DNA of 40,196 nucleotides, from contig CAMEJG010000016.1 in assembly GCA_945919465.1 (NCBI GenBank), forward strand, positions 1 through 40,196, written 5' to 3'. The notes under the pieces are model-generated. The model made no database searches. It saw nothing but the letters and a program-made list of their open reading frames with translations, and was not told where the DNA came from. This document shows, one piece after another, positions 6,413-35,771 of the stretch. Numbering within the stretch: the stretch's first letter is position 1; each line of letters opens with the position of its first letter. Position numbers and translations under genes: made by a program. The stretch is from an uncultured Anaeroplasma sp. (lineage in GTDB: Bacteria > Bacillota_I > Bacilli_A > Acholeplasmatales > Anaeroplasmataceae).

Positions 6413-6471
6413 TTTATATTAATTTATGATAAAATTAAGAAGTTAATAATTATATGATAATGGAGGTAACA

Positions 6472-7692
6472 ATGAAACATAAGAAAATATTATTTAGTCT
6501 AATTTCTTCATTATTTATTACTCTGGCATTGACAAGCTGTAATAGCTCTTCAAACTCATTTGATGAAGCTAGATATGAAGGACAAACATTAGTTACATAT
6601 GTTTTAAACGGTGGAACATATTCTAATTCTAAGGTCGATGTAAAGTTTTATTACAATTTGCCTGAAGGTGCAACTTGTAAAGTTATAAATATAGATGATG
6701 TAAAAATGGATAAAAAAGTTGAACCTGCAGATAATTGTGATGTTGATGAGACTTATAAAGCAGATACTGAATCAAGCTATATCACATATTGGTATAAGGA
6801 TGAAGCATTAACTCAGCCATTTGATTTTAAACAAGATGTTTTAACAGCTGGTACAAATTTGACATTATATGCCAAATGGGAACCAAAGATTAAACATACA
6901 TATAATGTTGGATATATGAAGGATGGGGAATTTAAATCTTTATATATCTATGAGAATGTTAGCAAGGGTTTACCATTTAGTGATTATTTATATAAGGTTG
7001 AACCTGCAGCTAAAAAAGCTGGAATTACATTCCTTGAAAAATATTATAGTGATCCTGAATTGACTAATGAGGTTATTCCTTCTGATAAGGATAGCTTTGC
7101 TCATCCAGGTGGTGATGTTTCTACAGAAGTAAAAATTTATATTGATTATATAGATGGTGAATATAAATTAGTTAAAACCTATTCTGATTTAAATAAATAT
7201 GCATTTAATAATATTTATTTAATGAATGATATAGATTGTGAAGGAAAAACATTAACCTTTGGTAACTATCAAAAATCATTTATGGGTAATGGACATACTA
7301 TTTCTAATTTCGTAGTTGGATTTGATGAGAAGCTTAATGGTACAAATAATTATAATAATAAATATTATGATGAGACAGATACAACTAAAAAAACATTAGG
7401 AATTAGCTTATTTGGTCAATGTAATAATGCTGAAATAAAAGATGTTACATTTGATAATGTTACATATAGAATTAATGTTTCTAATAGTTTTTTCACATAT
7501 ATTGGTGTTAATCCATTAGCATTTGAGTTAAAAAAGACAAAAGTAAACAATGTTACAATAAATGGTAAATATGAATTTGTTAAATTGCCAAATGGTTTTG
7601 TAAATGAAAATTATTTTGCGAGTGACGAATTATATGTTGTTAAGGATGAACAATCATCATTAGAAAATGTTAATTGTAATATTGTAAAATAA
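6472..7692 (+). CDS. Lipoprotein with Listeria-Bacteroides (InlB B-type) repeats
   Basis: A 406-residue surface lipoprotein. The signal peptide ends in ITLALTSC with Cys23 lipidated. Residues about 35-145 carry an InlB B-repeat/Flg_new pattern (VTYVLNGGTY, then LTLYAKWEP), and a second, weaker unit follows (YNVGYMKDGEF, FLEKYYSDPEL). The C-terminal third (KTYSDLNKYAFNNIYLMNDI, HTISNFVVG, ISLFGQCNNAEIKDV) looks like GLUG or pectate-lyase-like surface repeats. Such proteins usually bind host or extracellular material. The frame is open from ATG at 6454, but ATG at 6472 has ATGGAGG at the proper distance and starts the signal peptide. The oligopeptide-binding gene begins 17 bases after its stop, so the two are likely one transcript. 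Confidence 0.75.
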   Translation: MKHKKILFSLISSLFITLALTSCNSSSNSFDEARYEGQTLVTYVLNGGTYSNSKVDVKFYYNLPEGATCKVINIDDVKMDKKVEPADNCDVDETYKADTESSYITYWYKDEALTQPFDFKQDVLTAGTNLTLYAKWEPKIKHTYNVGYMKDGEFKSLYIYENVSKGLPFSDYLYKVEPAAKKAGITFLEKYYSDPELTNEVIPSDKDSFAHPGGDVSTEVKIYIDYIDGEYKLVKTYSDLNKYAFNNIYLMNDIDCEGKTLTFGNYQKSFMGNGHTISNFVVGFDEKLNGTNNYNNKYYDETDTTKKTLGISLFGQCNNAEIKDVTFDNVTYRINVSNSFFTYIGVNPLAFELKKTKVNNVTINGKYEFVKLPNGFVNENYFASDELYVVKDEQSSLENVNCNIVK

Positions 7693-7709: not shown

Positions 7710-10424
7710 ATGAAAAGTAAAAGTTTTAAACGTGTTTTATCCGTTGGTATGCTAGGAGCTCTAGCTTTATCAGTTGTAAGCTGTGGCGGAAGTGAGCCTA
7801 CAACTACACCATCTGGTATTGGTTCAACAACATCAGGTACAGGAAGCTCATTTAATCCTAAAAATGAAACAGAAGCATTAATTATGGCTTCTCAAGATGT
7901 AGATAAGGTATTTAACCCATTCTATTCATCAAGTGCTGCTGATGGTAGTGTTATCGGTATGACTCAAATTGGTATGCTTGGTAATGATTCAAAGGGTAAT
8001 GTTACAACTGCAAAGGATGGAGATGCAGTAGTTGTTTATGATTATGAATCAAAATATGATAAGGCTTCTGATACAACTACTTATAAGTTTGTATTAAGAA
8101 ATGATGTTAGATTTTCTAATAATACTCCACTTACAATGAAGGATGTATTATTCAATTTATATGTTTATCTAGATCCAGTATATGCAGGTTCTTCAACAAT
8201 TTATTCAACTGATATTGTTGGATTAAAGGCATATAGAACTCAACAAAGTACTGAAAATGAACAAGATAGCTATAGAGAGCAATTTGAAACAGTAGCATAT
8301 CAAAGAATTGCTAATCTAGTCCAAGCTGCTGATTATGTTAATGACGAGCATAAGGATGATAATGAGCCATTAACTATTGATTCATTTAGAGGATATCTAG
8401 AGGATTATGTTAAAGAAAATGGTGCAAACTATGCTGATGTAGTTGCTGATTATGATAAGGCGATTGAATTATTCAAAGAAGAAATAGATACAGACTGGAA
8501 TAACTCAAAAGATTCATGGCAAGATATGTCATTTATCGCGAAGAGAAAAGATGATTTCGGAAATAAGATTGAATATAAGAGTGATCCAAAAGATACTACT
8601 ACTCCAGATGATAAGAGATTCAAAACTGATGTTGAGGTTTTCTTATATATGGAAGGATTTATTAAGTGGAATGCTAAGGATGAAGTTTTAGAAGCTAAAA
8701 CTGCGTATGACTATAGAGAATATAGAGAATTAACTGAACAAGAAGCTAAGGATTTAGTTATTAATGCTACAATTCCTTCAAGTATTTCAGCAGTTGTTCA
8801 ATGGTATCAAACATCTAATACTTTATATGAATATATAGTAAATGACGCTATGGAAAAGGCAACTTCAGGAGCAGGTCAATTACAATATTCAAATATTTCA
8901 GGTATTAAATTTGCTAATAGAACTGAGGCTGTAACAGTAAATGGTGTTACTTATCCAGCAATGGATAATAATTATGAAGCAGATGGTACTGTTAAGGATG
9001 GCTATAATGAGGTATTATCTATTACAATTAATAAGGTAGACCCTAAGGCTATTTGGAACTTCGCATTTACAGTAGCTCCAATGTACTATTATTCAAATCA
9101 AGAAGAAATTGAAAAATTCGATTATGAATCTCATTTTGGTGTAACTTATTCTTCACAAACATTCCAACAAAATGTAATTAAGGATAAGGATAAGATCGGT
9201 GTTCCAGTTGGTGCTGGTGCTTATCAAGCAGTAAATAAAGATGGTTCTAAAGATAATGTTACTGCTGGTGGTTTCTTCGATGGTACAACAATTTATTATA
9301 CAAGAAATGATTATTTCATTGATCCTGTGACAAAGACTTATGCAACAATAAAGAATATTAGATTTAGAATTGTTCCTACTACAGGTTTAACAAATGCATT
9401 ATATACAAAAGAAGTTGATTATTGTGAGCCAAATGCTAAGCCTGAAACTAGTGCTGAATTAGCAACAAAAAGAAGCGAAGGAATTGGTAAACAAGAGGTA
9501 AAAACTTCAGGTTATGGTTATATTGGTGTAAATGCCGGTAAGGTTGAAAAGCTTACTGTTCGTCAAGCAATTATGCATTCAATTGATACTCAAGAAGTAG
9601 TAAATTATTATGGTACTTCAGCTGAGGCAATTTATCGTTCAATGTCTAAAGAAAACTGGGCATATCCTACTGGTTGTTCATCATATTATCCATATATTGG
9701 TGGTAAAATTCCATCTGATTTAGATGCAGTTAGTCCTAATTATAAGTATTATGTAACTGAGGTTTTAGGTAAAACTTCAGGTGAAGAATTAACTGAAGAT
9801 GAACAAAAAGCATTCATTGATTATTTAATTGGTGATTTAGGTGGTGTAGCTAAGGATTCATATGGTAATTATGATGGTTTAGTTTATACATTTACAATTG
9901 CTGGTGCATCAGAAGATCACCCTGCATTCGCAGCTATGTCACATGCAGCAGAATTCTTAAATAATATCGGTATGCAAATTACTGTTTCAAAGGATAGTAA
10001 TGCATTAACTAAATTAACTACAGGTGCTCTAGATGTTTGGGCAGCTGCATGGGGTTCTACAATTGACCCAGATATGTATCAAGTTTATCATAAAGAATCA
10101 AAAGCTAACTCAATTAAAAACTGGGGTTATCCAGAAATTTTAAGAAATAAGAGTAAATATCCTGAAGAAAATGATATTATCGATGAATTATCAGATTTAA
10201 TTGAAGCTGGTCGTGAAACAGAAAATCAAGAAATGCGTAAGAATATTTATTCTCAAGCATTAGATTTAGTTATGGAGCTTGCTGTAGAATTACCTACATA
10301 TCAAAGAACAGATTTATTTGCTTATAATATTAATAAGATACAAGAAAGTACTTTAAATCTAACTGATTTAACTTCTTACAAGGGATTAACAAGCAGCCTT
10401 TGGACTGTATCTTTAACAAAGTAA
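7710..10424 (+). CDS. oppA: Oversized oligopeptide-binding lipoprotein (SBP family 5)
   Basis: A 904-residue extracytoplasmic binding protein of ABC transporter family 5 (OppA/DppA type). The signal peptide ends in LSVVSC, with Cys25 lipidated and a Gly/Ser/Thr-rich tether after it. Family landmarks include NPFYSSSAADG, YKFVLRNDVRFSNNTPLTMKDV, then after a long gap the lobe containing VGAGAYQAV, YTRNDYF, LTVRQAIMHSIDTQEVVNYY, and a C-terminal part with ALDVWAAAWGSTIDPDMYQVY. Usual members have about 530-600 residues; most of the excess lies in roughly residues 150-390, rich in Asp and Lys. OppB, OppC, OppD and OppF follow. The ribosome site is AGGAGG. A hairpin after the gene may let it be made in excess over the permeases. 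Substrate is inferred to be peptides. Confidence 0.9.
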   Translation: MKSKSFKRVLSVGMLGALALSVVSCGGSEPTTTPSGIGSTTSGTGSSFNPKNETEALIMASQDVDKVFNPFYSSSAADGSVIGMTQIGMLGNDSKGNVTTAKDGDAVVVYDYESKYDKASDTTTYKFVLRNDVRFSNNTPLTMKDVLFNLYVYLDPVYAGSSTIYSTDIVGLKAYRTQQSTENEQDSYREQFETVAYQRIANLVQAADYVNDEHKDDNEPLTIDSFRGYLEDYVKENGANYADVVADYDKAIELFKEEIDTDWNNSKDSWQDMSFIAKRKDDFGNKIEYKSDPKDTTTPDDKRFKTDVEVFLYMEGFIKWNAKDEVLEAKTAYDYREYRELTEQEAKDLVINATIPSSISAVVQWYQTSNTLYEYIVNDAMEKATSGAGQLQYSNISGIKFANRTEAVTVNGVTYPAMDNNYEADGTVKDGYNEVLSITINKVDPKAIWNFAFTVAPMYYYSNQEEIEKFDYESHFGVTYSSQTFQQNVIKDKDKIGVPVGAGAYQAVNKDGSKDNVTAGGFFDGTTIYYTRNDYFIDPVTKTYATIKNIRFRIVPTTGLTNALYTKEVDYCEPNAKPETSAELATKRSEGIGKQEVKTSGYGYIGVNAGKVEKLTVRQAIMHSIDTQEVVNYYGTSAEAIYRSMSKENWAYPTGCSSYYPYIGGKIPSDLDAVSPNYKYYVTEVLGKTSGEELTEDEQKAFIDYLIGDLGGVAKDSYGNYDGLVYTFTIAGASEDHPAFAAMSHAAEFLNNIGMQITVSKDSNALTKLTTGALDVWAAAWGSTIDPDMYQVYHKESKANSIKNWGYPEILRNKSKYPEENDIIDELSDLIEAGRETENQEMRKNIYSQALDLVMELAVELPTYQRTDLFAYNINKIQESTLNLTDLTSYKGLTSSLWTVSLTK

Positions 10425-10431
10425 TATATTG

Positions 10432-10463
10432 AAAATGGCTATATCAATGTAGCCATTTTTAAT
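10432..10463 (+). terminator. Intercistronic hairpin between the binding protein and OppB genes
   Basis: AAAATGGCTA (10432-10441) and TAGCCATTTT (10450-10459) form a perfect 10-base stem with an 8-base loop, followed by TTTTTAAT counting the last arm bases. The OppB gene starts 17 bases later with its own AAGGAG. It may be a leaky terminator or a 3' stabiliser. Confidence 0.6.
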
Positions 10464-10480
10464 AACAAAGGAGTGGACAT

Positions 10481-11971
10481 ATGTTTAAATATATAGCAAA
10501 AAGACTAGGTATATCAATAATAGTTTTATTTGGTGTTTCAGTCATTTTATATTCATTAGTTCGTATGATGCCAGTTGACTATATAACACAAAAATTTCAA
10601 TCACAATTGAGCCAAGGTACTATGACAATGGATGATATTGATAACTATAAAAAATTATATGGTTTATATAATCCAGAGGCTGAAATTAGATTTGAAATAA
10701 CTGATGAGTCAAATACTGAAGAGGTAAGAAATTTTGGTGTATTTGCAACTGATGTTAGAATTGATGATTATAATAAATATTCTCTAACACCTGAGACATA
10801 TTTAGATTTAATATGTCCATCTAGTAGTGGAGATAGCAAAACAAAAAATTATTCTAGTAGTTTTGATGGTGTAACTAAATATAAATTAGATTTAATTTCA
10901 TCTAATAATGATGGAATAATTGATTATACTTATAAATTGTTTGAGGTTACTTTTGAAATTAAGGAAGAAGAAAAAACTGATGATACTGGTGAAAAATATA
11001 TTGTAGAAATTAAAAAAGAAATTGATACATTAATTGATACAGGTACTTTTAATGCAGCTATAAATTCTTTAACTAATTCTCCTGAGGTAACATTTACAAG
11101 TTCAAAAGGTTTAAAATTAAAAACTTTAACTTCATATTATACTTTTAATTTTTTCCAAAGGTTTGGAAATATCTTAGGTGGCTATTTTAGTTGGCTAGGA
11201 AAATTAATGACAGGTGATTTAGGTACTTCATGGAAATATGAAAGACCTGTTGCTGAAGTTATTTCAGATTATATGTGGATTTCATTTGCAATCGCAATTG
11301 TAGCTACTATTTTACAATTCTTAATTGCAATTCCGCTTGGAATCACAAGTTCAACTCATCAATATTCTGCAAGAGATTATATTGTTACTATATTAACAAT
11401 GATTGGTATTTCATTACCAACATATTTCTTCGCAGCAATATTAATTAAGGTATTTGCTGTTAATTTAGGTTGGTTCCCAACATCTGGTTTAAATTCTTCA
11501 AAATTCTTTGACACAAGTACCTTTGTTGGTTGGTTAGATTATTTTGGTGATACTGTTCACCATTTAGTATTACCAATTTTCTGTAGTGTTATTCTATCTT
11601 TAGGTGGATTAATGCGTTATACAAGAACCAATATGCTAGAAGTATTAAGTGCTGATTACATTCGTACTGCTCGTGCTAAGGGTTTATCTGAAAAGAGAGT
11701 TATTTATAAACATGCGTTTAGAAATACTATGATTCCTTTAGTAACATTACTAGCTGGTACAATTCCATCATTATTTGGTGGTATGATGATTACAGAGCAA
11801 GTATTTGGTATTCCTGGTATTGGTAATAAGGCCTACAATGCGTTAATGGCTGGAGATATTCCATTTGTAATGGGATATAATATGTTCCTTGCAATACTTT
11901 CAGTATTAGGAACATTATTATCAGACTTAATGTATTCTGTAGTTGACCCACGTGTAAAAATTGGAAAGTAG
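10481..11971 (+). CDS. oppB: Oligopeptide ABC transporter permease OppB with large inserted domain
   Basis: A 496-residue inner-membrane permease. The N-terminus (FKYIAKRLGISIIVLFGVSV, then RMMPVDYI) is the usual OppB/DppB first helix. The transmembrane core resumes near residue 225 (FFQRFGNILGGYFSWLGKLM, LMTGDLGTSW) and carries the EAA loop SADYIRTARAKGLSEKRVIY around 393-412, then TEQVFGIPGIGNKAY. Between them, residues about 40-222 form an extra extracytoplasmic domain; ordinary OppB has only a short loop there and about 306-320 residues in total. The gene follows the binding protein and overlaps nothing; OppC starts within 10 bases. It pairs with OppC to form the peptide channel. The insert suggests a dedicated docking surface for the enlarged binding protein. 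Confidence 0.92.
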   Translation: MFKYIAKRLGISIIVLFGVSVILYSLVRMMPVDYITQKFQSQLSQGTMTMDDIDNYKKLYGLYNPEAEIRFEITDESNTEEVRNFGVFATDVRIDDYNKYSLTPETYLDLICPSSSGDSKTKNYSSSFDGVTKYKLDLISSNNDGIIDYTYKLFEVTFEIKEEEKTDDTGEKYIVEIKKEIDTLIDTGTFNAAINSLTNSPEVTFTSSKGLKLKTLTSYYTFNFFQRFGNILGGYFSWLGKLMTGDLGTSWKYERPVAEVISDYMWISFAIAIVATILQFLIAIPLGITSSTHQYSARDYIVTILTMIGISLPTYFFAAILIKVFAVNLGWFPTSGLNSSKFFDTSTFVGWLDYFGDTVHHLVLPIFCSVILSLGGLMRYTRTNMLEVLSADYIRTARAKGLSEKRVIYKHAFRNTMIPLVTLLAGTIPSLFGGMMITEQVFGIPGIGNKAYNALMAGDIPFVMGYNMFLAILSVLGTLLSDLMYSVVDPRVKIGK

Positions 11972-11980
11972 GTGAATCTA

Positions 11981-13078
11981 GTGGAAGATAATAAAAATGA
12001 ATTAGAAAATGTAAATTCAGAAATTGAAAATATTGAAGAATCTACAAAAGAAGTAGAAGAAAAAACACTAGATTATGCTCAAGCTGAATTAAAGGCTGAA
12101 AGTCAAGCTGAAACATTCAAACAAATGGGTCCGTTACGTATGATTTTACGTAGATTCTTCCGTTCAAGATTATCTGTTGTTGGTCTTGTAATGGTTATTT
12201 TCTTATTTGCTTTTAGCTTTTTAGGCCCTGTTATTTACCCTGTTTGGGGTGAAACTGGATATGATAATACGCCTAATACTGAATGGATTACTGAAACTAT
12301 TGTTAATGAGGATGGTATAGAAATTACTCAGGTAGTAGAAATTACTTACACATTAAATAAATATGCTAATCCCTCTATAAATCATTTACTTGGTACTGAT
12401 GATCAAGCATATGATGTGTTTACAAGATTAATGTATGGTGGTAGAATTTCACTTACAATTGGTTTTATTGTTGTTATTCTTGAAACAATTATTGGTATAA
12501 TTTTAGGAGGCTTAGCTGGATTCTTTGGTGGCTGGGTTGATAATGTTATAATGCGTATAGTTGATATTTTTAACTGTATTCCTACATTACCTATTTTATT
12601 AATTTGTTCAGCAGTTATCGATTCTTGGAAGCTTGATGCTGATACAAGAATTTATGTATTAATGGTAATAATAACCTTGTTTGGATGGGCTGGTACTGCA
12701 AGAATTGTTCGTGGTCAAATTTTATATTTACGTGAACAAGAATATATTACTGCAACAGAAGTTATGGGTCTTCCAACTTGGAGAAGAATATTTAAGCATT
12801 TAATCCCTAATGTTATGCCTCAATTAATTGTTTCAATGACATTAGGATTAGGTGGAGTTATTTTATATGAATCAACACTTTCATATTTAGGCTTAGGTGT
12901 ACAGGTTCCTAAGGCGGCATGGGGTTCAATGATAGCATTAGCTAATGACCCAGTTGTATTAAATTATCATGTTAATATTTGGCTACCTGCTGGTGTTATG
13001 ATTGTTATCGCTGTGTTAGGATTTAATTTTATAGGAGATGGTCTTAGAGATGCAATGGATCCTAAGGCTAAGAAGTAA
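11981..13078 (+). CDS. oppC: Oligopeptide ABC transporter permease OppC
   Basis: A 365-residue permease partner of OppB. An acidic cytoplasmic N-terminus (about 1-55) precedes the OppC motif MILRRFFRSRLSVVGLVMVI. The lumenal part HLLGTDDQAYDVFTRLMYGG is typical of the family, and the EAA loop EYITATEVMGLPTWRRIFKH lies near residues 253-272. The first extracytoplasmic loop has about 50 extra residues (about 84-135). GTG at 11981 has AGGTGA five bases before it; GTG at 11972 is also possible, directly after the OppB stop. The end matches the family (LGFNFIGDGLRDAMDPK). The gene for the ATPase OppD starts 12 bases later. Confidence 0.92.
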   Translation: MEDNKNELENVNSEIENIEESTKEVEEKTLDYAQAELKAESQAETFKQMGPLRMILRRFFRSRLSVVGLVMVIFLFAFSFLGPVIYPVWGETGYDNTPNTEWITETIVNEDGIEITQVVEITYTLNKYANPSINHLLGTDDQAYDVFTRLMYGGRISLTIGFIVVILETIIGIILGGLAGFFGGWVDNVIMRIVDIFNCIPTLPILLICSAVIDSWKLDADTRIYVLMVIITLFGWAGTARIVRGQILYLREQEYITATEVMGLPTWRRIFKHLIPNVMPQLIVSMTLGLGGVILYESTLSYLGLGVQVPKAAWGSMIALANDPVVLNYHVNIWLPAGVMIVIAVLGFNFIGDGLRDAMDPKAKK

Positions 13079-13089
13079 GAGGTATTGGT

Positions 13090-14268
13090 ATGGCAGAAGA
13101 AAAGAAGAAAACAAATTACCTTTCCTCAAGTGAAAGTAAGAAAATATTAAGATATAATCTTAAACAAATGAAATATTATGAGAAAGAAAAAAGAAGGAAA
13201 AAAGATCCTTCTGAATATCTAACTCATATGAAGGATGATGCTAATTTAATTGAAATTGATGGACTTGAAACCTGCTTCTTTACAGATAATGGTACTGTTA
13301 AGTCAGTAAACAACGTTTCATTTGAAATTCCAAAAAATAAAATTGTTGGAGTCGTTGGTGAATCAGGATGTGGAAAAAGTGTTACAAGCTTATCAATTAT
13401 GCAATTAGTTCAAGCTCCACAAGGACAAATTACTGGTGGAGAAATTAGATTCAATTCATCAAAGCTTGGTGTTGATGAGAATGGACATAAGCTAGCTTAT
13501 AATATTGCAAAGATGCCTACTCAAGAATTATATAATATTCGTGGTAGTGAAATTACAATGATTTTTCAGGAACCAATGACAAGCTTAAATCCAGTTTTTA
13601 CAATTGGTAATCAGCTTGATGAGGTATCCTTTATTCATACTCCTGGTATATCTAAGGAGGATGCAAAAGCTCATAGTATTGATATGCTAAATCAGGTAGG
13701 TATTTCAATGCCTGAGCGTGTATATAATTCATATCCACATGAGTTATCAGGTGGTATGAGACAACGTGTTATGATAGCTATGGCATTAGCAGGTGATCCA
13801 AAATTGATTATTGCTGATGAGCCTACTACTGCATTAGATGTTACTATTCAAGCTCAAATTCTTGAATTATTAAAGAAGATTCAAAAGGAAAATGGTTGTT
13901 CAATTATGTTGATTACCCATGACCTAGGTGTTATAGCAGAGATGGCTGATGAGGTTGTAGTTATGTATGCTGGTAGAGTGATTGAACGCGGTACTGTTCG
14001 CGAAATATTTAATAATCCACTTCATCCATATACAATAGGTTTACAAAAGAGTAAACCATTGATTACTTCAAATTCTCAAGAGCCTCTATATTCAATTCCA
14101 GGTTCAGTTCCTAGCCCAATTAATCTTCCTGATACATGCTTCTTTAAGGGAAGATGTAATAGATGTATAAATAAATGTGAAGGAAAGTATCCTGGTTTTG
14201 TAAAGGTAACTGATACGCATTCTGTTGCATGTTATTTATATGAAGAAAAAAAGGAGGAAAATGAATAA
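13090..14268 (+). CDS. oppD: Oligopeptide ABC transporter ATPase OppD
   Basis: A 392-residue cytoplasmic ATPase. Walker A is GESGCGKS (90-97), the Q-loop lies at IFQEP (158-162), the signature is LSGGMRQRV (219-227), Walker B is LIIADE (239-244) and the H-loop is His277. The oligo_HPY tail contains PLHPYTIGL and a Cys cluster in a C-x5-C-x2-C-x3-C pattern (Cys350, 356, 359, 363), with Cys381 further on. Some OppD/DppD proteins are reported to hold an iron-sulphur cluster at this place, so the Cys set may do the same. A highly charged N-terminal extension of about 50 residues precedes the ATPase fold and is not usual. The stop overlaps the OppF start by one base. Confidence 0.95.
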   Translation: MAEEKKKTNYLSSSESKKILRYNLKQMKYYEKEKRRKKDPSEYLTHMKDDANLIEIDGLETCFFTDNGTVKSVNNVSFEIPKNKIVGVVGESGCGKSVTSLSIMQLVQAPQGQITGGEIRFNSSKLGVDENGHKLAYNIAKMPTQELYNIRGSEITMIFQEPMTSLNPVFTIGNQLDEVSFIHTPGISKEDAKAHSIDMLNQVGISMPERVYNSYPHELSGGMRQRVMIAMALAGDPKLIIADEPTTALDVTIQAQILELLKKIQKENGCSIMLITHDLGVIAEMADEVVVMYAGRVIERGTVREIFNNPLHPYTIGLQKSKPLITSNSQEPLYSIPGSVPSPINLPDTCFFKGRCNRCINKCEGKYPGFVKVTDTHSVACYLYEEKKEENE

Positions 14269-15344
14269 TGGAAAACGAAAAAGTATTAAATTCTTCTGAA
14301 GAATATACACCAAATCCAAAATATATTCTTGAGGTAAAGAATTTAAACAAGTATTTCCCTTTAAATCCTAATTTCTTCGGAAAACCTCAATCTATTTTAA
14401 AGGCTGTAAATAATGTTTCCTTTGGTGTTGAAAAAGGTAAAACAATCGGAATCGTTGGTGAATCTGGTTGTGGTAAAACAACATTAGGAAGAACTATTTT
14501 AAAGCTTTATGAATCAGATGGTGGAAATATTTGGTTTGAAGGACAAAATATTACTACATTAAAAAGAAAAGAAATGAATAAGCTTCGTGTAGATATGCAA
14601 TTAGTATTCCAAGATCCTTATTCAAGCTTACCTCCTCGTATGACTGTTGGAGAAATTATAAGTGAAGCTGTTAAGGTTCATAAAATTGTTCCAAAAGAAG
14701 AAATACAAGCACATGTACTTAAGATTATGGAGCAATGTGGTTTACAAACTACTTATTATGATAGATATCCACATGAATTCTCAGGTGGACAGCGTCAAAG
14801 AATTTGTATCGCAAGAGCTCTTGCGGTAAATCCAAAGCTTGTTATTTGTGATGAGCCAGTTAGTGCCCTTGACGTTTCAATTCAAGCTCAAATCATTAAT
14901 CTATTAAAGCAACTTCAAAATGAAATGGATTTAACTTATGTGTTCATTTCACATGACCTTTCAGTTGTTAAATATATTACTGATAACATTTTAGTAATGT
15001 ATTTAGGAAATATGATGGAGTATGGAGATACAGATGAAATATTTGATAATCCACTTCATCCATATACTAAAGCATTATTCTCAGCAGTTCCAGTACCAAA
15101 CCCAGATCATGAAATGAATAGAATTATTCTTAATGGGGATATTCCTTCACCTGCTAACCCTCCAAAGGGTTGTAAATTCCATACTCGTTGTAGGGAATGT
15201 ATGGGTGTATGTAAGATACTAGAGCCTGTTTATAAGGAAGTATCAGAAAATCACTTTGTTGCTTGTCATTTATATAATGAAGAAGTAATGAATGATAAAG
15301 AAAAATATGAGAATATTGTTAAGGATTTAGAGAATTATAATTAA
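14268..15344 (+). CDS. oppF: Oligopeptide ABC transporter ATPase OppF
   Basis: A 358-residue ATPase that pairs with OppD. Walker A is GESGCGKT (64-71), the Q-loop VFQDPYSSLPPRM (113-125), the signature FSGGQRQRI (171-179) and Walker B LVICDE (191-196). The C-terminal oligo_HPY part has HPYTKALFSAVP and GCKFHTRCRECMGVC, the same C-x5-C-x2-C-x3-C spacing as OppD. Its ATG overlaps the OppD stop (TAATG), and AAGGAGG lies 12 bases upstream inside OppD, so translation is coupled. Only 16 bases separate its stop from the next small gene, with no terminator, which keeps the protease gene in the same operon. Confidence 0.95.
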   Translation: MENEKVLNSSEEYTPNPKYILEVKNLNKYFPLNPNFFGKPQSILKAVNNVSFGVEKGKTIGIVGESGCGKTTLGRTILKLYESDGGNIWFEGQNITTLKRKEMNKLRVDMQLVFQDPYSSLPPRMTVGEIISEAVKVHKIVPKEEIQAHVLKIMEQCGLQTTYYDRYPHEFSGGQRQRICIARALAVNPKLVICDEPVSALDVSIQAQIINLLKQLQNEMDLTYVFISHDLSVVKYITDNILVMYLGNMMEYGDTDEIFDNPLHPYTKALFSAVPVPNPDHEMNRIILNGDIPSPANPPKGCKFHTRCRECMGVCKILEPVYKEVSENHFVACHLYNEEVMNDKEKYENIVKDLENYN

Positions 15345-15360: not shown

Positions 15361-15600
15361 ATGAAAAAGGAAAAAAAGAAAAAACAAAAATTTATAGATG
15401 ATGGAAGAACCATCTATAATATGGATGTTGATGGGATGCCTCATAGAAGAAAGAAAGAGGATCCAAATGGAGTATATTTAACAAAAAAAGAAAGAAAAGC
15501 AGCAATCATTGCTGCTATACTTCATTTTATGCCAATCTTATTTGGAGTTATTCTTTGCTTTACAATAGTAATGGTGCTCCTATATTTTTGGTTAAAATGA
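15361..15600 (+). CDS. Small basic membrane protein between OppF and the protease
   Basis: A 79-residue protein I do not recognise. The first 52 residues are strongly charged and begin with a Lys-rich stretch; GMPHRRKKEDPNG and LTKKERKAA stand out. The last 27 residues are hydrophobic (AIIAAILHFMPILFGVILCF and on), enough for one long or two short membrane passes. The basic N-terminus should lie in the cytoplasm. It ends with TGA, and the protease start lies 17 bases further on. No clear ribosome site precedes the ATG, so it may be translated by coupling to OppF. Its place suggests a role with the transporter or in protease export, but that is inference. The conserved-looking composition and intact frame argue for a real gene. 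Confidence 0.6.
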   Translation: MKKEKKKKQKFIDDGRTIYNMDVDGMPHRRKKEDPNGVYLTKKERKAAIIAAILHFMPILFGVILCFTIVMVLLYFWLK

Positions 15601-15617
15601 TGAGAGGAGAGATGAAA

Positions 15618-18600
15618 ATGAAAAAGATAAAAAAATTTGCAATTGTAACTCTTTCATTAGCTGCTATAGCAACTGCTGTAAGCTGTAATAATAATGAACT
15701 AGAAAATACAAGTTCAAGCAATTTAAGCTCTTCTTATGAAGAGGTTGAAACATCTAAAGATTCATTAAGAATTTTTAATACAAATCAAACCTTAACTCAA
15801 GAAGCAAGAGCTGATCTTATTAAAAAAGAATATTTATTAGAAAATAATGGATATAAGGATTCTGATAAGGTTGGAATTATTGTTACATTAAAGAATCAAT
15901 CATTATTAGATAGATATAATGATAATGGCTATAGTAAAGATTATGATACAGTATCTGATTATGTAGAAAGCTATTATGGTCAACGCCAACAAAAGAAAAT
16001 AATTGATGAGCAATTTAACGCTATAAAGAATTTTCAAAGCTTAGGATATCTAAAGACAGTCGAGCATTCTTATTCAACAGTATTAAATGGTATTTCATTT
16101 GAAACTGAGTATGGTAATGTTTCTAAAATTGAAGAAAGTGATTTAGTTAGTAGAGTTGTATTAGTTGATTCATTTAATTTGCCAAAAACCACTGAATCTA
16201 CAACAAATACTGTAACAAATCTTGTTGATGTTTATGAAACAGGTATATTTAATTCAAGTACTGTTAAATATGATGGAGATGGTACTACAGTTGCAGTATT
16301 AGACTCTGGCTTTGATTGTACTCATGAGGTATTTAATGATCCTGCTATTTTAAATAGTATAGAAAAGCCAATTATTGATGTAAACTATATTAGTGAACGT
16401 TTATCACTTTTAAATGCAAATAATACTACAGCTAATTTAAAGCCTGAGGATTTATATTATAGTGTTAAGATTCCTTATGCTTATGATTATGCTGATAAGG
16501 ATTATGATGTTAATCCAGCTGACTCTGAGCATGGTACTCACGTTGCTGGTATTATAGGTGGTAGCTCTGAAACAATTACAGGTGTAGCTACTAAAACACA
16601 ATTAGTATTAATGAAGGTTTTCCCAGATATTTCTACTGGTGCAAGAACAAGTGATATCCTTGCAGCCCTAGAGGATGCAACTGTATTAGGTGTTGATGCA
16701 GTTAATATGTCATTAGGTTCTTCTTGTGGTTTCGATAGAGAATGTGATAATGACTTTGCTGATGACTATGAAGGTTCAGCAGATGGTAGTGTTATCAATA
16801 AGGTATATGATGGATTATCTGCTGCTGGTATTACTGTTGTAACTGCAGCAAGTAACGATTATTCATCAGGTTATGGTGGACCTAAGGGTAACCTTAATAA
16901 AGTAACTAACCCTGATTCAGGTACAGTTGGTTCTCCATCTACATATAAGGATAACTTATCTGTTGCATCAATTAGTGGTGTTAAGACTGGTTATTTCTTA
17001 GCTAATGACCAATATTCATTCTTCTTTAACCAATGTACATCTATTTCTGGAAAGGAAAATGATTTCGTTGAACAATTAATGCAACAACAACCAGATTTAT
17101 TTGCTGATGGAAAGTCAGTTCATGAATTTAAGTACATAATTGTGCCTGGTATTGGTGTTGAAGCTTCATATTCAGGTATTGGAAGCCAAGTTAAGGGTAA
17201 GATTGCTTTAGTAAAACGTGGTGAAAATACATTCGAAGAAAAAGTAAGACTTGCTAAGAAATATGGTGCTATCGCAATTATAATTTATAACAATGTTGAA
17301 GGTGAAATTTTTATGACAGTAAGTGCAGAAGGACATATTCCTGCTGCGTCTGTTTCAAAGGATGTTGGTGCTCAATTAGTTAGTATGGCTAATAAGGGCG
17401 TTGGTACAATTAAGATTTCCGATCAATTTGTTGCCGGACCATTTATGTCAAATTTCTCAAGCTGGGGTCCTACTCCATCTTTAGCATTAAAGCCTGAAAT
17501 TACAGCCCATGGTGGTGATATCCTATCATCTATTCCTGGTGGCGAATATGAAAGAATGAGTGGTACATCAATGGCATCACCTAACATGTGTGGTATTGTT
17601 GTATTAATTCGTCAATATGTTAAAGAAACCTTCCCTGATTTAACAACAAAAGAAATCGAGGAAATGACTAATTCATTATTAATGTCTACAGCAACTATTG
17701 CGTTAAATGAGGATGGGAATCCATATTCTCCTCGTAAGCAAGGTGCTGGTCTTGCAAGCTTAACAAAAGCTACTACTACAAGTGCATATATTGAGGTTGA
17801 AGGTTCTGTAAAGCCTAAATTAGAATTAGGTGATGATGTAAATAGAACTGGTGTTTATGATATGGAATTCATTATCAAGAATGTTTCTGATAAGGAATTA
17901 AAATATACAATGGATATCGAGGCTATGACTGAGTCAGTTTCATTAACAGATGAAACATTCGTATCTGAAAGATCATATATGCTAGATAAGAGTAATTTAG
18001 TTGTTAAGGTTGGTAATTCAGTTTTATCAGATAAAGTTGTTACTGTACCTGCAAACGGAAATACTAAGGTTACTGTGACATTAACATTATCTAGTGAAGA
18101 TAAGGCTTATATTACAAAGAGCTTCGCTTACGGAATGTATGTTGAGGGATTTGTTAAGGCTATAGCAAATTCTGAAACTGAAGTATCATTAAATGTTCCA
18201 TTCCTTGCTTTCTTTGGGGATTGGACTGAAGCTCCAATTTTTGATAAGACTTTCTTCGAAGTAGAAACTGAGGCACATAATAACGCAATTGATGCTGATG
18301 ATAAGATTGCAGCCGATTATTATGCAACTCGTCCATTTGGAAATTATTATTACAATTATTTATTACCGTTAGGTACATATTTATATAGTATGGATGAATC
18401 TCAATATGAAGCAATTCCTGGAAGTGAAGAACATATTGCAATGACATCTAAATTTGGAGGAATTAATGGTATTTCTTCAGTTTATGCTGGATGCTTCCGT
18501 AACTGTAAGGAAATGCGTTTTACAATTACTGATACAGTTACTGGTGAAGTAATATTTAGTGAAATTGATTATAACGCAAGAAAATCTTTTGGTAATGGTG

Positions 18601-21600
18601 GTTCAGCTGTTCCTTATTATAACTTCTTAAAGTTAAGATGCGAGGATTTAGGATTAGTTAATAATAGAAAATATACATTTAGTATGCTTGGTATTTTAGA
18701 TTATTCACATGAAGGTGAAGAAGAGGATGAAATTGGTGGTCAAAAGACAAATGTTCGTAATACATTTAGCTTTGATTTCACAATGGATGATGAAGCACCA
18801 ATCGTAAAATCAGCAAGCTATTATAAGAAATATGATAAGACATTAAAGGATTATCGTTATTATTTAAAGGTTACTGTATATGATAATCATTATGTTCAAG
18901 CAGTAACTCCAGTAGGTTTCTCTGGTAGCAATGACTATACATTAATGTCAAATTATTCTATTCCAGTTTATGGAGATTTTGCTTCTGAAACTGAACTTGA
19001 ATTTGAAGTGACTGATTATTTAAAGAATTTGCCTGCTGATTATAAGATTAATAATGCAATTGCATTAAGTATTGATGATTATGCATTAAATTCAAATATC
19101 TTCTTAATTGAATTACCTGGTACTACAGATGAGTTTGAATTTACTGAGGATGGTACTGATACTACTACATTAAAGTCATTAAGCTTAACTGTTGGTGAGG
19201 CATATGATTTAACTCAATTAATGTATTCTTCAGTATCAAGTGATAAAGAATATTTCAAGTATTTAACATGGAGTTCTTCTGATTCAAATATTGTTGAGGT
19301 TCATGAAGGTGCTGTATTAGCTCATAAGACTGGTAGAGCAGTAATTACTGCATATGATAAGATAACTAACAAATCTGCCTCTATTACAATTCAAGTAAAG
19401 CAGCCAACTACAACAAATTTAAATTCTATTGTATATCGTAAATATGAGGGTGAAGATAAACTAGAAAGTATTAAATTTGATTATTTTGATACAATCTTTG
19501 CTTATCCTATTGCTGCACAATCTAGTGCGATAGGAGAAACTGGAGATAGAATGTATACAACTAATAAATCATTTATTGAATTCTATCCAGGAGAAAAGGT
19601 AAAGCTTCATGCTAATATTCAACCATGGTATGTGGCTGATAATTATGATTTTACATATTCATCTCAAAATGACAATATTGCATCAGTTGATCAAGATGGT
19701 GTAGTTACTGCTAAAAAGGAAGGTACAGTTATCATTACCTTATCAAGCCCATCATCTACACAACAAGCAAGAATTACTGTTGTTGTAAAAAATGAATTTG
19801 TAGTTGAAAATAGAATGCTTGTTGCCTATAAGGGCTTAGGTGGAGATGTTGTAATTCCTGATGATCAAGGTATTTATTATATTGGCGAATATGCATTCTG
19901 TTTATATGATACTGATATTGAGGTTGAAAACCCAGATAATGATGATGACTTTAATAAGACACCTCATTCTAATACAACTATTAAGTCAGTAACAATACCA
20001 GAAGGTGTCCAAGATATTCAAAAATATGCATTCTATAATTGTGTGGCTCTTGAAAAGGTTATTTTACCTTCAACAATTAGATATATTCGTGAATATGCAT
20101 TCGCAAATAATACAAGCTTAGTTGAAATTAATTTAGATGATGAAGTTGAGGTTATTAGTCATTATTGCTTCTACAATTGTACTTCATTAAATCAAGATTT
20201 CAAATTAAATAAATGTTATACAATTGGAAATAGTGCCTTTGAGGGTTGTAGTTCTCTTGAAAGTATTAATTTATCTAAATTAAGAAATTCTGGTACAAAT
20301 GCATTTAAGAATTGTACAAATCTTAAAAATGTAACATTTAACAAAGATGGATTAACAAAGTTAAATGAAGGAATTTTTGAAAATACTGCATTAGTTGATG
20401 TAGTATTAAATGTAACTCAAATCCCTTCAAGATCATTCTATAATTGTGACTCTTTAAAAACAATAACAATTAACGGTAAGGTTGTAGCAATTGGAAATAG
20501 TGCATTTGCTGAAAATGATTTATTAGAAACAGTTACAATTAATGCATCTGTTGAATATTTAAATTCATATGCATTTGCAAATTGTGCTAAATTAACAACA
20601 GTCACATTACCTAACAGTGCAGTTAAGGTTGAAGAATCCATATTTAGTGGTTCTACATCATTAGAAACAGTAAATATTCAAGCTAAAACATATTTTACTA
20701 CACTAGGTTCTGCATTATTATTAAATACTAAGGTTTCAAGCTTTACAGTTGATTCTGCAAATGAAAATTATTCTTCAAATAATGGTTTATTATTAAGCAA
20801 GGATGGAAAAACTGTATATTTAGCAGCTCCAAACAATACATATGGTGATTATACATTACCAGAAGATGTAACTTCAATTGCCGAGGCTGCATTCTCTGGA
20901 ATTAGTAATTTAACATCATTAACATTTACACATGATGTTACATTAGCTAATAAAGCATTTGCTAATTGTCCAAATCTTGCATCAGTAACATTAACTAATG
21001 TTGATGAATTACCAAGCTATGCATTCTATGGTTGTAGCAATTTAGTTTCATTAACTAATTTAGATTCTGTTAAAGTAATTGGTGATTATGCATTTGCTGA
21101 AACAGGATTAACTACAGTTTCAGTAGGAGCTAATACAACAATTGGTAAATATGCATTTGCATCCTCAAAGCTTACAAGTGCTACATTAGGTGAAAATGCT
21201 ACAATTGGTGATTATGCATTTACTAAATGTAATCAATTAAAGACTGTTACATTAGGTGAAAACACTACAGTTAATAATCATGCTTTCTTCTTAGCTACTT
21301 CATTAGCTACTATAAATTCAGCTAATATTGTTGGAAATGTTGGCGATTATGCCTTTGCATTTACTGCATTAACTTCTATTGATTTAGCAAATGCTTCAAA
21401 ATTAGGAAGCTATTCATTCTTTGAAGCATCATCCCTTGCTACTGTTACATTGGGTGATAATGTAAATGAGATTGGAGATTATGCATTCGCGAATAAAAAA
21501 TCAGGTTCATTAACAGCTATAAATTTACCTTCAAGCCTATTAAAGATCGGTGAGGGTGCATTTATGGCTCAATCAAAGCTAACTACTATTACTTTACCTT

Positions 21601-23147
21601 CTTCAATTAAGGAAGTAAAAGCTAATACATTTATGAATGCTTCTCTTTTAACAACAGTTGAAGGAAATATTGAAGTTGTTTCTGATTATGCATTTGGAAA
21701 CTGTACATCTTTATCTAATATTGATTTATCAAATGTTAAAACTATTGGATCTTTTGCATTTGCTAAGGCATCAAAGCTTCAATCAGTTTCTTTATCTAAG
21801 GTAGTTAAAATTGGAGAATATGCATTCTATTCTTCAGGTGTTTCTGGTGAAGTAGTAGCACCTGCTTTAGAGGTTTTAAATAGTTATGCATTTGCAAATT
21901 CTAGTTTATCTTCATTAACTGCATTAAAACTAAAATCAATTGGTCAATATGTATTTAATGGTACAAGCATAAAGAAATTTACATTAGCTTCAACACTAGA
22001 ATTAGTATCTGATTTAGCATTTAATGGTGCTAATTATCTTGAAGAATTTAATTATGATAATAATGGTACTTTAGCTACAACTGGTAGTGTAAATAACTAT
22101 TTATTACTAAATGATGGTGTTTTATATACAACACTAACAAATACTAAACTTAATTTATCAGCTGTTCCTGCAGCAAAGAAAATTTCTAATTTAGTTGTTT
22201 TAGATGGAACTGCATCAATTTCTGAATCTGCTGGTAACTCTAATGTAAACATTAAGTCAGTTGTTTTACCTGATTCAATGAAGACTGTTGGTGCTTTTGC
22301 ATTCTACAAGTGTTCAAATTTAGCATCAGTTGAATTCAAATCAGTTATCGCTCCAAGCCTAGAGTGTTATAAGAGAAGTGATATTGAAAATAAAATCACA
22401 ATTAATTCTCCAGGCTATGATAAATTACACGCATTTATTGGTATGTATGGATTAGAGATTTATTATGCGAACTTTGTTGATTTAATAGGTACATTTAAGC
22501 CTATTTCAATGATACTTCCAAGCAATGAAGATATTGAAGGCTACGATTCTATTCAATATGAGGTATTCTTTGGCACAGTGGAAAATGCTCAAAGAAGTAA
22601 TTATGTAGCAATGAATAAAACATCTGTAACTTATTTAGAATCAATGGATAGAATTATGAATATTAATATTGTTTCATTACAAGATGAAACATTAATTAAT
22701 ACAGCATCTACTGCTTATGTTAATTTAACTGATGATTTAACTAAATATGGTTATACAGAAGCTCAATTAACTCAAATGTCAACTAAACTTGCTGCAGTTA
22801 GTAAATCATTAAGAGAATTAAAATATAAGACAGCATCAGCTGAGGTAAAAAATCTTCAAAAAGAATTAGATGAACTTGATACTGTATTCACATTATCTCG
22901 TTTAACTGAATTAACTATTTTGGCTAATAAGATTAATAATTTAAAACCTGCTGAAAAGACAATTCTTGATTTAACTAACCTAAATACATTAAAGGTTTCA
23001 TATCAAGAATATCTAGATTCATTAGCTCCAACTATTGAAGGAGTTGATGAAGTAGTTTCCGGTTCATTTAATTATCTTGGTGTTGCAGTAGTAGCATTAA
23101 CAACACTTACTGCTTTAGCTGCTTTAGCTTTAGTAAAGAAGTTTTAA
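15618..23147 (+). CDS. Giant subtilisin-like (S8) lipoprotein with PA, Ig-like and BspA-type LRR domains
   Basis: A 2509-residue surface protease. The signal peptide ends in ATAVSC (Cys23 lipidated). A pro-region (about 50-190) precedes the S8 catalytic domain with Asp229 (AVLDSGFD), His305 (EHGTHVAG), oxyanion Asn413 (AASND) and Ser651 (GTSMASP), all present. A PA domain is inserted before the Ser (about 500-605, VKGKIALVKRGENTF), as in lactocepin and C5a peptidases, and Fn3-like domains follow. Two Big_2-type Ig domains lie near 1180-1260 and 1305-1390. About 30 BspA-type leucine-rich repeats (YAFANC-like) occupy about 1395-2240, then a helical stretch. The last 24 residues are hydrophobic and end in VKKF, with no LPxTG. 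ATG at 15618 is favoured over 15612 because GAGAGGAG lies 8 bases before it. It likely cuts host or dietary protein and feeds peptides to the Opp system. Confidence 0.92.
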   Translation: MKKIKKFAIVTLSLAAIATAVSCNNNELENTSSSNLSSSYEEVETSKDSLRIFNTNQTLTQEARADLIKKEYLLENNGYKDSDKVGIIVTLKNQSLLDRYNDNGYSKDYDTVSDYVESYYGQRQQKKIIDEQFNAIKNFQSLGYLKTVEHSYSTVLNGISFETEYGNVSKIEESDLVSRVVLVDSFNLPKTTESTTNTVTNLVDVYETGIFNSSTVKYDGDGTTVAVLDSGFDCTHEVFNDPAILNSIEKPIIDVNYISERLSLLNANNTTANLKPEDLYYSVKIPYAYDYADKDYDVNPADSEHGTHVAGIIGGSSETITGVATKTQLVLMKVFPDISTGARTSDILAALEDATVLGVDAVNMSLGSSCGFDRECDNDFADDYEGSADGSVINKVYDGLSAAGITVVTAASNDYSSGYGGPKGNLNKVTNPDSGTVGSPSTYKDNLSVASISGVKTGYFLANDQYSFFFNQCTSISGKENDFVEQLMQQQPDLFADGKSVHEFKYIIVPGIGVEASYSGIGSQVKGKIALVKRGENTFEEKVRLAKKYGAIAIIIYNNVEGEIFMTVSAEGHIPAASVSKDVGAQLVSMANKGVGTIKISDQFVAGPFMSNFSSWGPTPSLALKPEITAHGGDILSSIPGGEYERMSGTSMASPNMCGIVVLIRQYVKETFPDLTTKEIEEMTNSLLMSTATIALNEDGNPYSPRKQGAGLASLTKATTTSAYIEVEGSVKPKLELGDDVNRTGVYDMEFIIKNVSDKELKYTMDIEAMTESVSLTDETFVSERSYMLDKSNLVVKVGNSVLSDKVVTVPANGNTKVTVTLTLSSEDKAYITKSFAYGMYVEGFVKAIANSETEVSLNVPFLAFFGDWTEAPIFDKTFFEVETEAHNNAIDADDKIAADYYATRPFGNYYYNYLLPLGTYLYSMDESQYEAIPGSEEHIAMTSKFGGINGISSVYAGCFRNCKEMRFTITDTVTGEVIFSEIDYNARKSFGNGGSAVPYYNFLKLRCEDLGLVNNRKYTFSMLGILDYSHEGEEEDEIGGQKTNVRNTFSFDFTMDDEAPIVKSASYYKKYDKTLKDYRYYLKVTVYDNHYVQAVTPVGFSGSNDYTLMSNYSIPVYGDFASETELEFEVTDYLKNLPADYKINNAIALSIDDYALNSNIFLIELPGTTDEFEFTEDGTDTTTLKSLSLTVGEAYDLTQLMYSSVSSDKEYFKYLTWSSSDSNIVEVHEGAVLAHKTGRAVITAYDKITNKSASITIQVKQPTTTNLNSIVYRKYEGEDKLESIKFDYFDTIFAYPIAAQSSAIGETGDRMYTTNKSFIEFYPGEKVKLHANIQPWYVADNYDFTYSSQNDNIASVDQDGVVTAKKEGTVIITLSSPSSTQQARITVVVKNEFVVENRMLVAYKGLGGDVVIPDDQGIYYIGEYAFCLYDTDIEVENPDNDDDFNKTPHSNTTIKSVTIPEGVQDIQKYAFYNCVALEKVILPSTIRYIREYAFANNTSLVEINLDDEVEVISHYCFYNCTSLNQDFKLNKCYTIGNSAFEGCSSLESINLSKLRNSGTNAFKNCTNLKNVTFNKDGLTKLNEGIFENTALVDVVLNVTQIPSRSFYNCDSLKTITINGKVVAIGNSAFAENDLLETVTINASVEYLNSYAFANCAKLTTVTLPNSAVKVEESIFSGSTSLETVNIQAKTYFTTLGSALLLNTKVSSFTVDSANENYSSNNGLLLSKDGKTVYLAAPNNTYGDYTLPEDVTSIAEAAFSGISNLTSLTFTHDVTLANKAFANCPNLASVTLTNVDELPSYAFYGCSNLVSLTNLDSVKVIGDYAFAETGLTTVSVGANTTIGKYAFASSKLTSATLGENATIGDYAFTKCNQLKTVTLGENTTVNNHAFFLATSLATINSANIVGNVGDYAFAFTALTSIDLANASKLGSYSFFEASSLATVTLGDNVNEIGDYAFANKKSGSLTAINLPSSLLKIGEGAFMAQSKLTTITLPSSIKEVKANTFMNASLLTTVEGNIEVVSDYAFGNCTSLSNIDLSNVKTIGSFAFAKASKLQSVSLSKVVKIGEYAFYSSGVSGEVVAPALEVLNSYAFANSSLSSLTALKLKSIGQYVFNGTSIKKFTLASTLELVSDLAFNGANYLEEFNYDNNGTLATTGSVNNYLLLNDGVLYTTLTNTKLNLSAVPAAKKISNLVVLDGTASISESAGNSNVNIKSVVLPDSMKTVGAFAFYKCSNLASVEFKSVIAPSLECYKRSDIENKITINSPGYDKLHAFIGMYGLEIYYANFVDLIGTFKPISMILPSNEDIEGYDSIQYEVFFGTVENAQRSNYVAMNKTSVTYLESMDRIMNINIVSLQDETLINTASTAYVNLTDDLTKYGYTEAQLTQMSTKLAAVSKSLRELKYKTASAEVKNLQKELDELDTVFTLSRLTELTILANKINNLKPAEKTILDLTNLNTLKVSYQEYLDSLAPTIEGVDEVVSGSFNYLGVAVVALTTLTALAALALVKKF
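19840..22345 (+). repeat. DNA coding for about 30 degenerate BspA-type leucine-rich repeats
   Basis: Within the protease gene, units of roughly 66-75 bases recur, each with a core such as TATGCATTTGC (Tyr-Ala-Phe-Ala). Units differ enough at DNA level that they are not a simple tandem array, but short identical cores recur many times, which could support slippage or recombination. The protein pattern is LRR_5/BspA. Confidence 0.85.
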
Positions 23148-23164: not shown

Positions 23165-23776
23165 ATGAAAATGAAAAAATATTTAGCATTAGCATTATTT
23201 GGTCTTGTTGCTTTAACCTCTTGTGGTGGCGAAGAACCTACTGATACTAATTCTTCTACAACCACTCAAACAGTTACTACACCTGATACAATTTCTACAG
23301 TTTCTGATTTTTCAAATGCTATTAAAAATGGGTTAAAAGATGTATTTACAGTAACTACAAATGCTGTTATGAAAGATGGAGAAACAATTGTATATAAGAA
23401 TGACACTAAGATTACAATAACTAATTCTGAGACTTTATCTGGTTCCTCAGTAGTAGATAGATATTCATTAAATCAAAACTTTAAACTTGAAAAGAAGACT
23501 AAAACTACATATTTTGAGAATTTAGATTCAAATAATTTATTTGGATATAATTTAGATGATTCTTATTTTGTAACCAAAACAGTTGATGAAAATTCCTTAA
23601 TTGGAACTATAAAGCCAGAATCAGCTCAAGCCTTCTTTAATAGTACATCAGTAGATGTTTCAGAGCCTATAAGTGTAAGTTTTGTTTTAAATAATAAGAA
23701 ACTATATTCAATTACTATTAATTATAAGTCTCTTGACAAAGATGTATCAGTTTCTTCTTTATATACATATAAATAA
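23165..23776 (+). CDS. Small lipoprotein of unknown function, last gene of the operon
   Basis: A 203-residue lipoprotein. The signal peptide ends in LVALTSC, with Cys20 lipidated, then a Thr/Ser-rich tether (about 25-45). The rest has alternating short strands (TVTTNAVMKDGETIVYKNDT, TKTTYFENLDSN, KLYSITINYKSLDKDVSVSS), like LppX/LolA-like or DUF-type lipoproteins that form a half-barrel; this is only a guess from pattern. AGGAGG lies 9 bases before the ATG at 23165, and the gene starts 17 bases after the protease stop. A very strong terminator follows. It may be an accessory or folding partner of the protease. Confidence 0.7.
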   Translation: MKMKKYLALALFGLVALTSCGGEEPTDTNSSTTTQTVTTPDTISTVSDFSNAIKNGLKDVFTVTTNAVMKDGETIVYKNDTKITITNSETLSGSSVVDRYSLNQNFKLEKKTKTTYFENLDSNNLFGYNLDDSYFVTKTVDENSLIGTIKPESAQAFFNSTSVDVSEPISVSFVLNNKKLYSITINYKSLDKDVSVSSLYTYK

Positions 23777-34791: not shown

Positions 34792-35771
34792 ATTTAGGTA
34801 TTTTATTTGGTGGTAATTCATTAGAACATGATATTTCAATAATATCTGCATTTCAGCTTAAGAATAAGCTTAGTAAAGTATTTAATGTTGTAATGATTTA
34901 TTGTGATTTTGAAGCTAATATTTATAATGTAAGTAAAAATAAGCTTGATGATTTTAAAAAGGATAAAAATAAATTTAAAAAAACTAGATTTGTTAATGGT
35001 GGAATAAAAAATAAAAAAATAGATTTAATGGTTTTAATAGGTCATGGAGAAAATAGTGAGGATGGAGTATTTGCAGGATTGATGAGGTTTTATAATATTT
35101 GTTTTTTAGGTAGTGATATTTTTGCATCTAGCTTATCTATTGATAAATGGAATTCTTATTTATTTTTAAGAGAAGAAATACCATTTATTAATAAGATTAG
35201 TTATAATAAGAATGATTATATTAATAAAAAAGAAATCCCATTTATGCCTGCAATAATTAAGCCGAGATTTGGAGGATCCTCTATTGGTATAGAAATTTGT
35301 AATACAAAAGAAGAACTAGATAAATTACTTATTAAAGAATTGAATGATTATAATGAATTAATAATAGAACCATTTATGAATAATATTGAAGAATACACTC
35401 AAGCTGTATCCCATAATTATATTTCAAAAATAGAAGTAATAAAAAAGAAGGCGTATTATAGTTTTGAATCTAAATATACTAATGATAATAAATTTATATT
35501 AAAAGACTATATTGTTGATTCTAAATTGAATGAACTATCAAAAAAAATTTATAAATTAATTAATGCGAGTGGAATTATTAGAATTGATTATTTTAAAATA
35601 AATGATAGATATTTTGTAAATGAAATTAATACTTTGCCAGGGGCACTTGCTTCATATTTATTTGATAATTTTGATGATGTTATTTTAGATGAAATGAAAT
35701 ATTCATTTAACAATAAAGTCATTAAATATAATTCATTAAAATTTCTTAAAAATTCAAATATTCAAAAATAA
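34788..35771 (+). CDS. ddl: D-alanine--D-alanine ligase
   Basis: A 327-residue ATP-grasp ligase. The N-terminal motif GGNSLEHDIS (8-17) includes the substrate Glu13. The ATP-grasp parts are IIKPRFGGSSIGIE (156-169), the omega loop ESKYTND with Lys229-Tyr230, RIDYF (265-269) and VNEINTLPG (277-285). Tyr230 sits where D-lactate-type ligases usually have Phe, so D-Ala-D-Ala is the likely product, not D-Ala-D-Lac; this rests on memory of the loop alignment. The ATG overlaps the MurF stop (ATGA), and AGGAGGAG lies inside the MurF gene. The pair makes and attaches the dipeptide of the cell wall. Confidence 0.93.
   Translation: MNLGILFGGNSLEHDISIISAFQLKNKLSKVFNVVMIYCDFEANIYNVSKNKLDDFKKDKNKFKKTRFVNGGIKNKKIDLMVLIGHGENSEDGVFAGLMRFYNICFLGSDIFASSLSIDKWNSYLFLREEIPFINKISYNKNDYINKKEIPFMPAIIKPRFGGSSIGIEICNTKEELDKLLIKELNDYNELIIEPFMNNIEEYTQAVSHNYISKIEVIKKKAYYSFESKYTNDNKFILKDYIVDSKLNELSKKIYKLINASGIIRIDYFKINDRYFVNEINTLPGALASYLFDNFDDVILDEMKYSFNNKVIKYNSLKFLKNSNIQK

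Follow-up and report, generated by a model that had tools for sequence, protein, structure and literature searches.

A giant S8 cell-envelope proteinase in an uncultured Anaeroplasma sp. with a lipobox at its N-terminus and a predicted transmembrane tail at its C-terminus

How is a giant surface protease held on the cell when its gene specifies a possible anchor at each end? The question is raised by the window analysed here, a stretch of 40,196 nucleotides from an uncultured Anaeroplasma sp. of the gut, in which oppABCDF lie directly upstream of the gene for a protease with a lipobox and a hydrophobic tail (Table 1). An earlier note on this DNA took the protein to be anchored at both ends, and proposed either that it spans from membrane to membrane as a loop of about 2400 residues or that its tail is a sorting or cleavage signal of a new type. 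It also suggested that one anchor could be cut, releasing the other end.

Table 1. Features of the protease locus, in window coordinates.
Feature	Position	Strand	Basis
Lipoprotein upstream of opp	6454..7692	+	relatives by protease/opp in L043, L046, L047, L048, L051, L057
oppA-oppB-oppC-oppD-oppF, oligopeptide importer genes	7710..15344	+	translations; Opp4A-type match for OppA
Giant S8 cell-envelope proteinase, 2,509 aa	15618..23147	+	ORF and domain search
Lipoprotein signal peptide, lipobox AVS-Cys23	15618..15686	+	sequence; conserved in orthologs
I9-type propeptide domain (predicted), aa 84-183	15867..16166	+	AlphaFold2 fold order; PrtP alignment
Predicted autocleavage junction K190/T191	16185..16190	+	aligned with PrtP T187/D188
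Peptidase S8 catalytic domain	16275..17750	+	Pfam PF00082, 3.3e-40, 138.6 bits
PA domain, inserted in protease domain	17163..17378	+	PF02225, 2.4e-16, over cut-off
Fn3-like domain (fn3_5)	17841..18206	+	PF06280, 9.9e-10, over cut-off
Bacterial Ig-like domain (Big_2), better of two	19590..19781	+	PF02368
BspA-type leucine-rich repeats (LRR_5)	19968..22352	+	PF13306, 2.2e-135, 445 bits
Helical stalk domain, aa 2334-2469	22617..23024	+	AlphaFold2 helices, most blocks pLDDT 76-93
Predicted C-terminal transmembrane tail, aa 2489-2506, and KKF	23082..23144	+	hydropathy; AlphaFold2
Small lipoprotein directly downstream of protease	23165..23776	+	relatives in L037, L038

The protease frame is open from a TTG at 15555 to 23147, and the start is likely the ATG at 15618, six bases past AGAGGAGAG. 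The catalytic triad is intact (Asp229 at 16302, His305 at 16530, and Ser651 at 17568) within an S8 fold that holds the PA insert and is followed by the Fn3-like domain, the latter being typical of cell-envelope proteinases. When the N-terminal region was used in a profile search against the PDB, the best matches were streptococcal C5a peptidases and cell-envelope proteinases. Judged by its sequence, the protein is a cell-envelope proteinase, kin to lactocepin and C5a peptidase, and it is predicted to be proteolytically active and to mature itself. It is the sole S8 protease found in its own genome, and its LRR_5 repeats are those of a BspA-type leucine-rich repeat protein. S8 cell-envelope proteinases typically, if not universally, have an LPXTG wall anchor. 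The window protease has no such motif at its C-terminus, and sortase is absent from this genome.

Orthologs, all of about 2,500 residues, are found in 12 of 100 related genomes, this one counted. The N-terminus of the window protease is MKKIKKFAIVTLSLAAIATAVSC, in which Cys23 lies within AVSC, an acceptable lipobox and not the strongest, with A instead of L at position -3. The lipobox pointed out in the earlier note is well founded: each of the 11 other orthologs has the cysteine, and the lipobox is present wherever the N-terminus is available. The frame in L040 starts at the lipobox cysteine, at a contig end, and its signal peptide is out of view. The lipoprotein signal peptidase LspA is encoded in 11 of the 12 carrier genomes, including this one (PF01252 at G000:C22, E 3.8e-31). 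The gene and its genome thus combine the hallmarks of a bacterial lipoprotein, a conserved lipobox cysteine after a signal peptide and a lipoprotein signal peptidase, and lipidation of Cys23 is predicted.

The C-terminus is VAVVALTTLTALAALALV followed by KKF, that is, a hydrophobic run of 18 residues and a short end. It had been described as hydrophobic, ending in KKF and without LPxTG, and this holds: the best 18-residue Kyte-Doolittle mean is 2.47, against a maximum of 1.29 over 42 windows of 110 residues from the interior of the same protease. The pairing of this tail with a lipobox is not a matter of chance. A clear hydrophobic run (1.71-2.89) is present in 11 of the 12 orthologs, while the tails are 10-45% identical and have diverged more than most of the protein. 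They share no motif, yet they keep their hydrophobicity and mostly a basic end, which argues for a membrane anchor and not a recognition motif. Most plausibly, the tail is an ordinary membrane anchor of the stop-transfer type. The ortholog of G035 has a marginal tail (1.57); here (L045, 12640-12765) the run contains acidic residues (D/E) and there is no basic end, so that the helix anchor has possibly been lost. A frameshift was rejected in this case, as the other frames hold stops and there is no frameshift sign. In the AlphaFold2 model of the C-terminal part, the helical bundle gives way to an unstructured stretch, after which the tail forms a helix of its own. This helix is thereby set apart from the bundle, but with a tail pLDDT under 50 the model argues only weakly against the possibility, named in the earlier note, that the tail is part of a folded domain.

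Searches for a sorting system around this tail were negative. Sortase is found in one of the 12 carriers (G034) and exosortase (PF09721) in none, and the window protease has neither the motif and sortase of an LPXTG substrate nor the exosortase that goes with PEP-CTERM. An NCBIfam search with the tail gave no GlyGly-CTERM/rhombosortase match, and the lipo-invert tail NF058595 was not among the matches of the C-terminal 115 amino acids and had no match over cut-off across this genome. Its invert_tail matches below cut-off in the genome were discarded, being mostly signal-peptide-like and having counterparts in all control genomes. A literature search on lipo-invert tails found nothing. In a lipoprotein survey of 485,893 bases, about 23% of this genome, 32 frames fit a lipobox pattern, and about 27 of these do not have several membrane segments. 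Among them the window protease is the only one in which a lipobox is paired with a single hydrophobic tail at the C-terminus. The earlier note had proposed collecting the C-termini of large lipoproteins in the lineage; no shared tail motif emerged, whether from the 12 orthologs or from the about 27 lipobox candidates in the surveyed 486 kb. A similarity search with the tail in this genome matched only the tail itself, and the genome's other giant LRR proteins have no such tail. Contigs C17 and C69 each start within a giant LRR frame (1856 and 1853 amino acids; L009:1-5600 and L011:1-5600); the two frames are very similar and are probably paralogs or the mark of an assembly break within a repeat family.

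Peptidoglycan genes have been reported in 40-60% of Anaeroplasmataceae genomes, and sortase loss has been placed at an ancestral node of Acholeplasmatales (PMC10868615). Penicillin-binding proteins with a transpeptidase domain are present in this genome and in none of the four carriers of genus g4. No wall is therefore expected in genus g4, where the protease is kept nonetheless, and the wall seems to have been lost within the family. The window itself encodes MurF-like and D-Ala-D-Ala ligase-like proteins in tandem (33391-35771), and its segment 32001-34000 has 17% GC while most of the window has 25-34%.

The chain between Cys23 and the catalytic domain includes a segment that resembles the propeptide of lactococcal PrtP. 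In the AlphaFold2 model it has the order beta-alpha-beta-beta-alpha-beta with a block pLDDT of about 76-90, and the fold comparison was made by secondary-structure order and alignment only. The N-terminal model is otherwise poor (mean pLDDT 63, with the catalytic region largely low). Pfam I9 passes its cut-off in the relatives L054 and L059 and has no match on the window protease, which counts against the explanation favoured below. An AvrE_T3Es match on the propeptide was dismissed as chance (16 bits against a cut-off of 24). Structured propeptides of PrtP homologs have the same strand/helix order and are removed autocatalytically, and I9-type propeptides are normally removed for subtilase activation (PMC10535647). 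In the PrtP alignment the junction precedes a linker of variable length, and D188 is the reported mature N-terminus of lactococcal PrtP (PMC7783315). A cut at the corresponding site would give a lipidated piece of ~167 residues and a mature enzyme of ~252 kDa. Because the propeptide would separate the lipid from the catalytic domain, cleavage would leave the mature enzyme dependent on its tail. The doubly anchored form is thus most likely a zymogen, and the lipidated end is probably removed along with the pro-segment. A precedent is dentilisin, whose acylated propeptide is shed upon activation and is not retained by mature dentilisin PrtP (PMC8167434).

The proposals of the earlier note fare differently against this background. 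Anchoring at both ends stands for the precursor, for which both signals are encoded and conserved, while the mature enzyme would sit on the C-terminal helix and not form the loop. That one anchor could be cut gains support from the placement of the propeptide and from the PrtP site aligned at K190/T191. Lactococcal PrtP needs PrtM. No PrsA/PrtM-type rotamase (PF00639) is found in any carrier, a further point against the explanation favoured below.

A genome scan for further relatives yielded proteins from Clostridia and Bacilli MAGs. Nine of them, all from Clostridia (L050-L055, L057, L058, and L068), have the same giant architecture and a C-terminal transmembrane segment without LPxTG, and most are encoded beside opp, but they have an ordinary signal peptide where the window protease has a lipobox. 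In L051, L054, L055, and L057 the tail helix is followed by 36-79 residues. L048 and L049 have both lipobox and tail, the latter with 41 residues past the helix, and the more distant L059 has a lipobox and no hydrophobic tail. In a tree of the S8 domain the proteins with lipid and transmembrane segment group into a single clade (support 0.997), which is nested within those with signal peptide and transmembrane segment. The tail therefore appears to be the older anchor and the lipobox a later addition.

Of 24 loci, 18 have opp genes next to the protease, 11 of them on its upstream side and seven on its downstream side, and several of the remaining loci end at contig ends. This linkage points to peptide feeding as a role, and peptides released by the protease probably supply the neighbouring importer. 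OppB of the window (10481-11971) carries about 150-165 extra residues between residue 62 and about 212-228, an insertion that is absent from OppB of most relatives (330-335 amino acids) and seems to be present in L068. A small lipoprotein occupies the corresponding position in L039, L042, L043, L044, and L045, and the lipoprotein upstream of opp is a possible partner of the protease. Further upstream (3309-5285) lies a membrane polyferredoxin to which a thioredoxin-like domain with CGPC is fused; in L050 and L068 a relative of it is encoded close to the protease.

Taken together, these features suggest the following course of events, which as a whole we regard as fairly probable. The protease would be exported through Sec and receive its lipid at Cys23. 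Its last ~20 residues would act as a stop-transfer helix, with the N-terminal side outside and the basic end in the cytoplasm, so that the precursor would have an anchor at each end. The I9-type propeptide would fold the S8 domain, after which the enzyme would cut near K190/T191. The lipid would remain on the ~167-residue propeptide, while the ~252 kDa mature protease would stay attached through its C-terminal helix on the helical stalk, and the LRR region would act as a spacer or as an arm that binds substrate. The released peptides would be taken up by OppABCDF. The high conservation of the lipobox counts against this scheme, given that the lipid would leave with the propeptide, as do the sortase of G034, the weak G035 tail without a basic end, and the low confidence of the N-terminal and tail models.

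That conservation of both signals across the clade is what would be expected if both anchors persisted and the mature enzyme were a permanent loop of ~2,400 residues on one membrane, held by lipid and helix; lipoproteins with extra membrane-spanning segments do exist, such as CtaC and QoxA (PMC13068155). A propeptide of a type that is normally removed (PMC10535647) would nevertheless lie between lipid and catalytic domain, and we consider the permanent loop unlikely. Alternatively, the lipid might do the anchoring, with a tail that is either dispensable or folded as part of the stalk, as L059 and the weakened G035 tail would allow. Hydrophobicity is, however, kept in 11 of the 12 orthologs despite sequence divergence, the nine Clostridia relatives have the tail and no lipobox, and the low-confidence model parts tail and bundle by an unstructured linker, all of which makes this reading decidedly improbable.

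Least probable of all, and very much so, is a processed sorting signal, with a hypothetical transpeptidase that cuts the tail and transfers the protein to another anchor. A hydrophobic segment with a short basic end does resemble the end of an LPXTG or PEP-CTERM tail, and L048 has IPNTG some residues ahead of the hydrophobic run. The new sorting signal of the earlier note nonetheless finds no support, in view of the missing ortholog motif, the lack of sortase in 11 and of exosortase in all 12 carriers, the relatives with long cytoplasmic tails, the absence of such a tail from the other sampled lipoproteins of the genome, and the retention of the protease in carriers without PBPs. Within the favoured course, from zymogen to helix-anchored protease, the lipid might by design serve the propeptide, which after cleavage would stay in the membrane as chaperone or inhibitor of the tail-anchored protease. 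This reading is rather doubtful; if true, one chain would give two membrane proteins, replacing wall attachment in a sortase-less lineage.

The protease is of a known kind, and the variant lies in its anchoring, which is new. Among its closest known counterparts is lactococcal PrtP (lactocepin) with Opp, a surface protease and an oligopeptide importer. PrtP is 28% identical over 92% of the query and has the S8 domain, PA insert, and Fn3-like domain, as well as an I9-type propeptide that aligns across the cleavage junction. However, PrtP has a signal peptidase I leader, an LPXTG wall anchor, and a need for PrtM, while the window protease has a lipobox, a transmembrane tail, and LRRs, and no PF00639 foldase was found in the carriers. 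The best NCBIfam match (aa 61-883) is the streptococcal C5a peptidase / SGO_0316 family (NF040553), at 257.4 bits against a cut-off of 1400, which places the protein outside a family that is LPXTG-anchored by definition; the window protease differs from that family in its LRRs and membrane tail. CtaC and QoxA likewise combine lipid and transmembrane anchoring in one protein (PMC13068155); for the window protease there would be a specific reason for this combination, the lipid leaving with the propeptide. As for acylated subtilases, those described in 2021 were dentilisin and SphB1 only (PMC8167434), and the present proteins extend the predicted members to a clade of Bacillota. They also provide a case for how a wall-type surface protease may be kept on the cell in a sortase-less lineage, including carriers without penicillin-binding transpeptidases. 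Treponema denticola dentilisin PrtP is similar in being an acylated subtilisin-like protease with a released acylated propeptide, but it is much smaller and part of an outer-membrane complex with PrcA and PrcB, and no C-terminal helix anchor is reported for it in the passages of PMC8167434 consulted.
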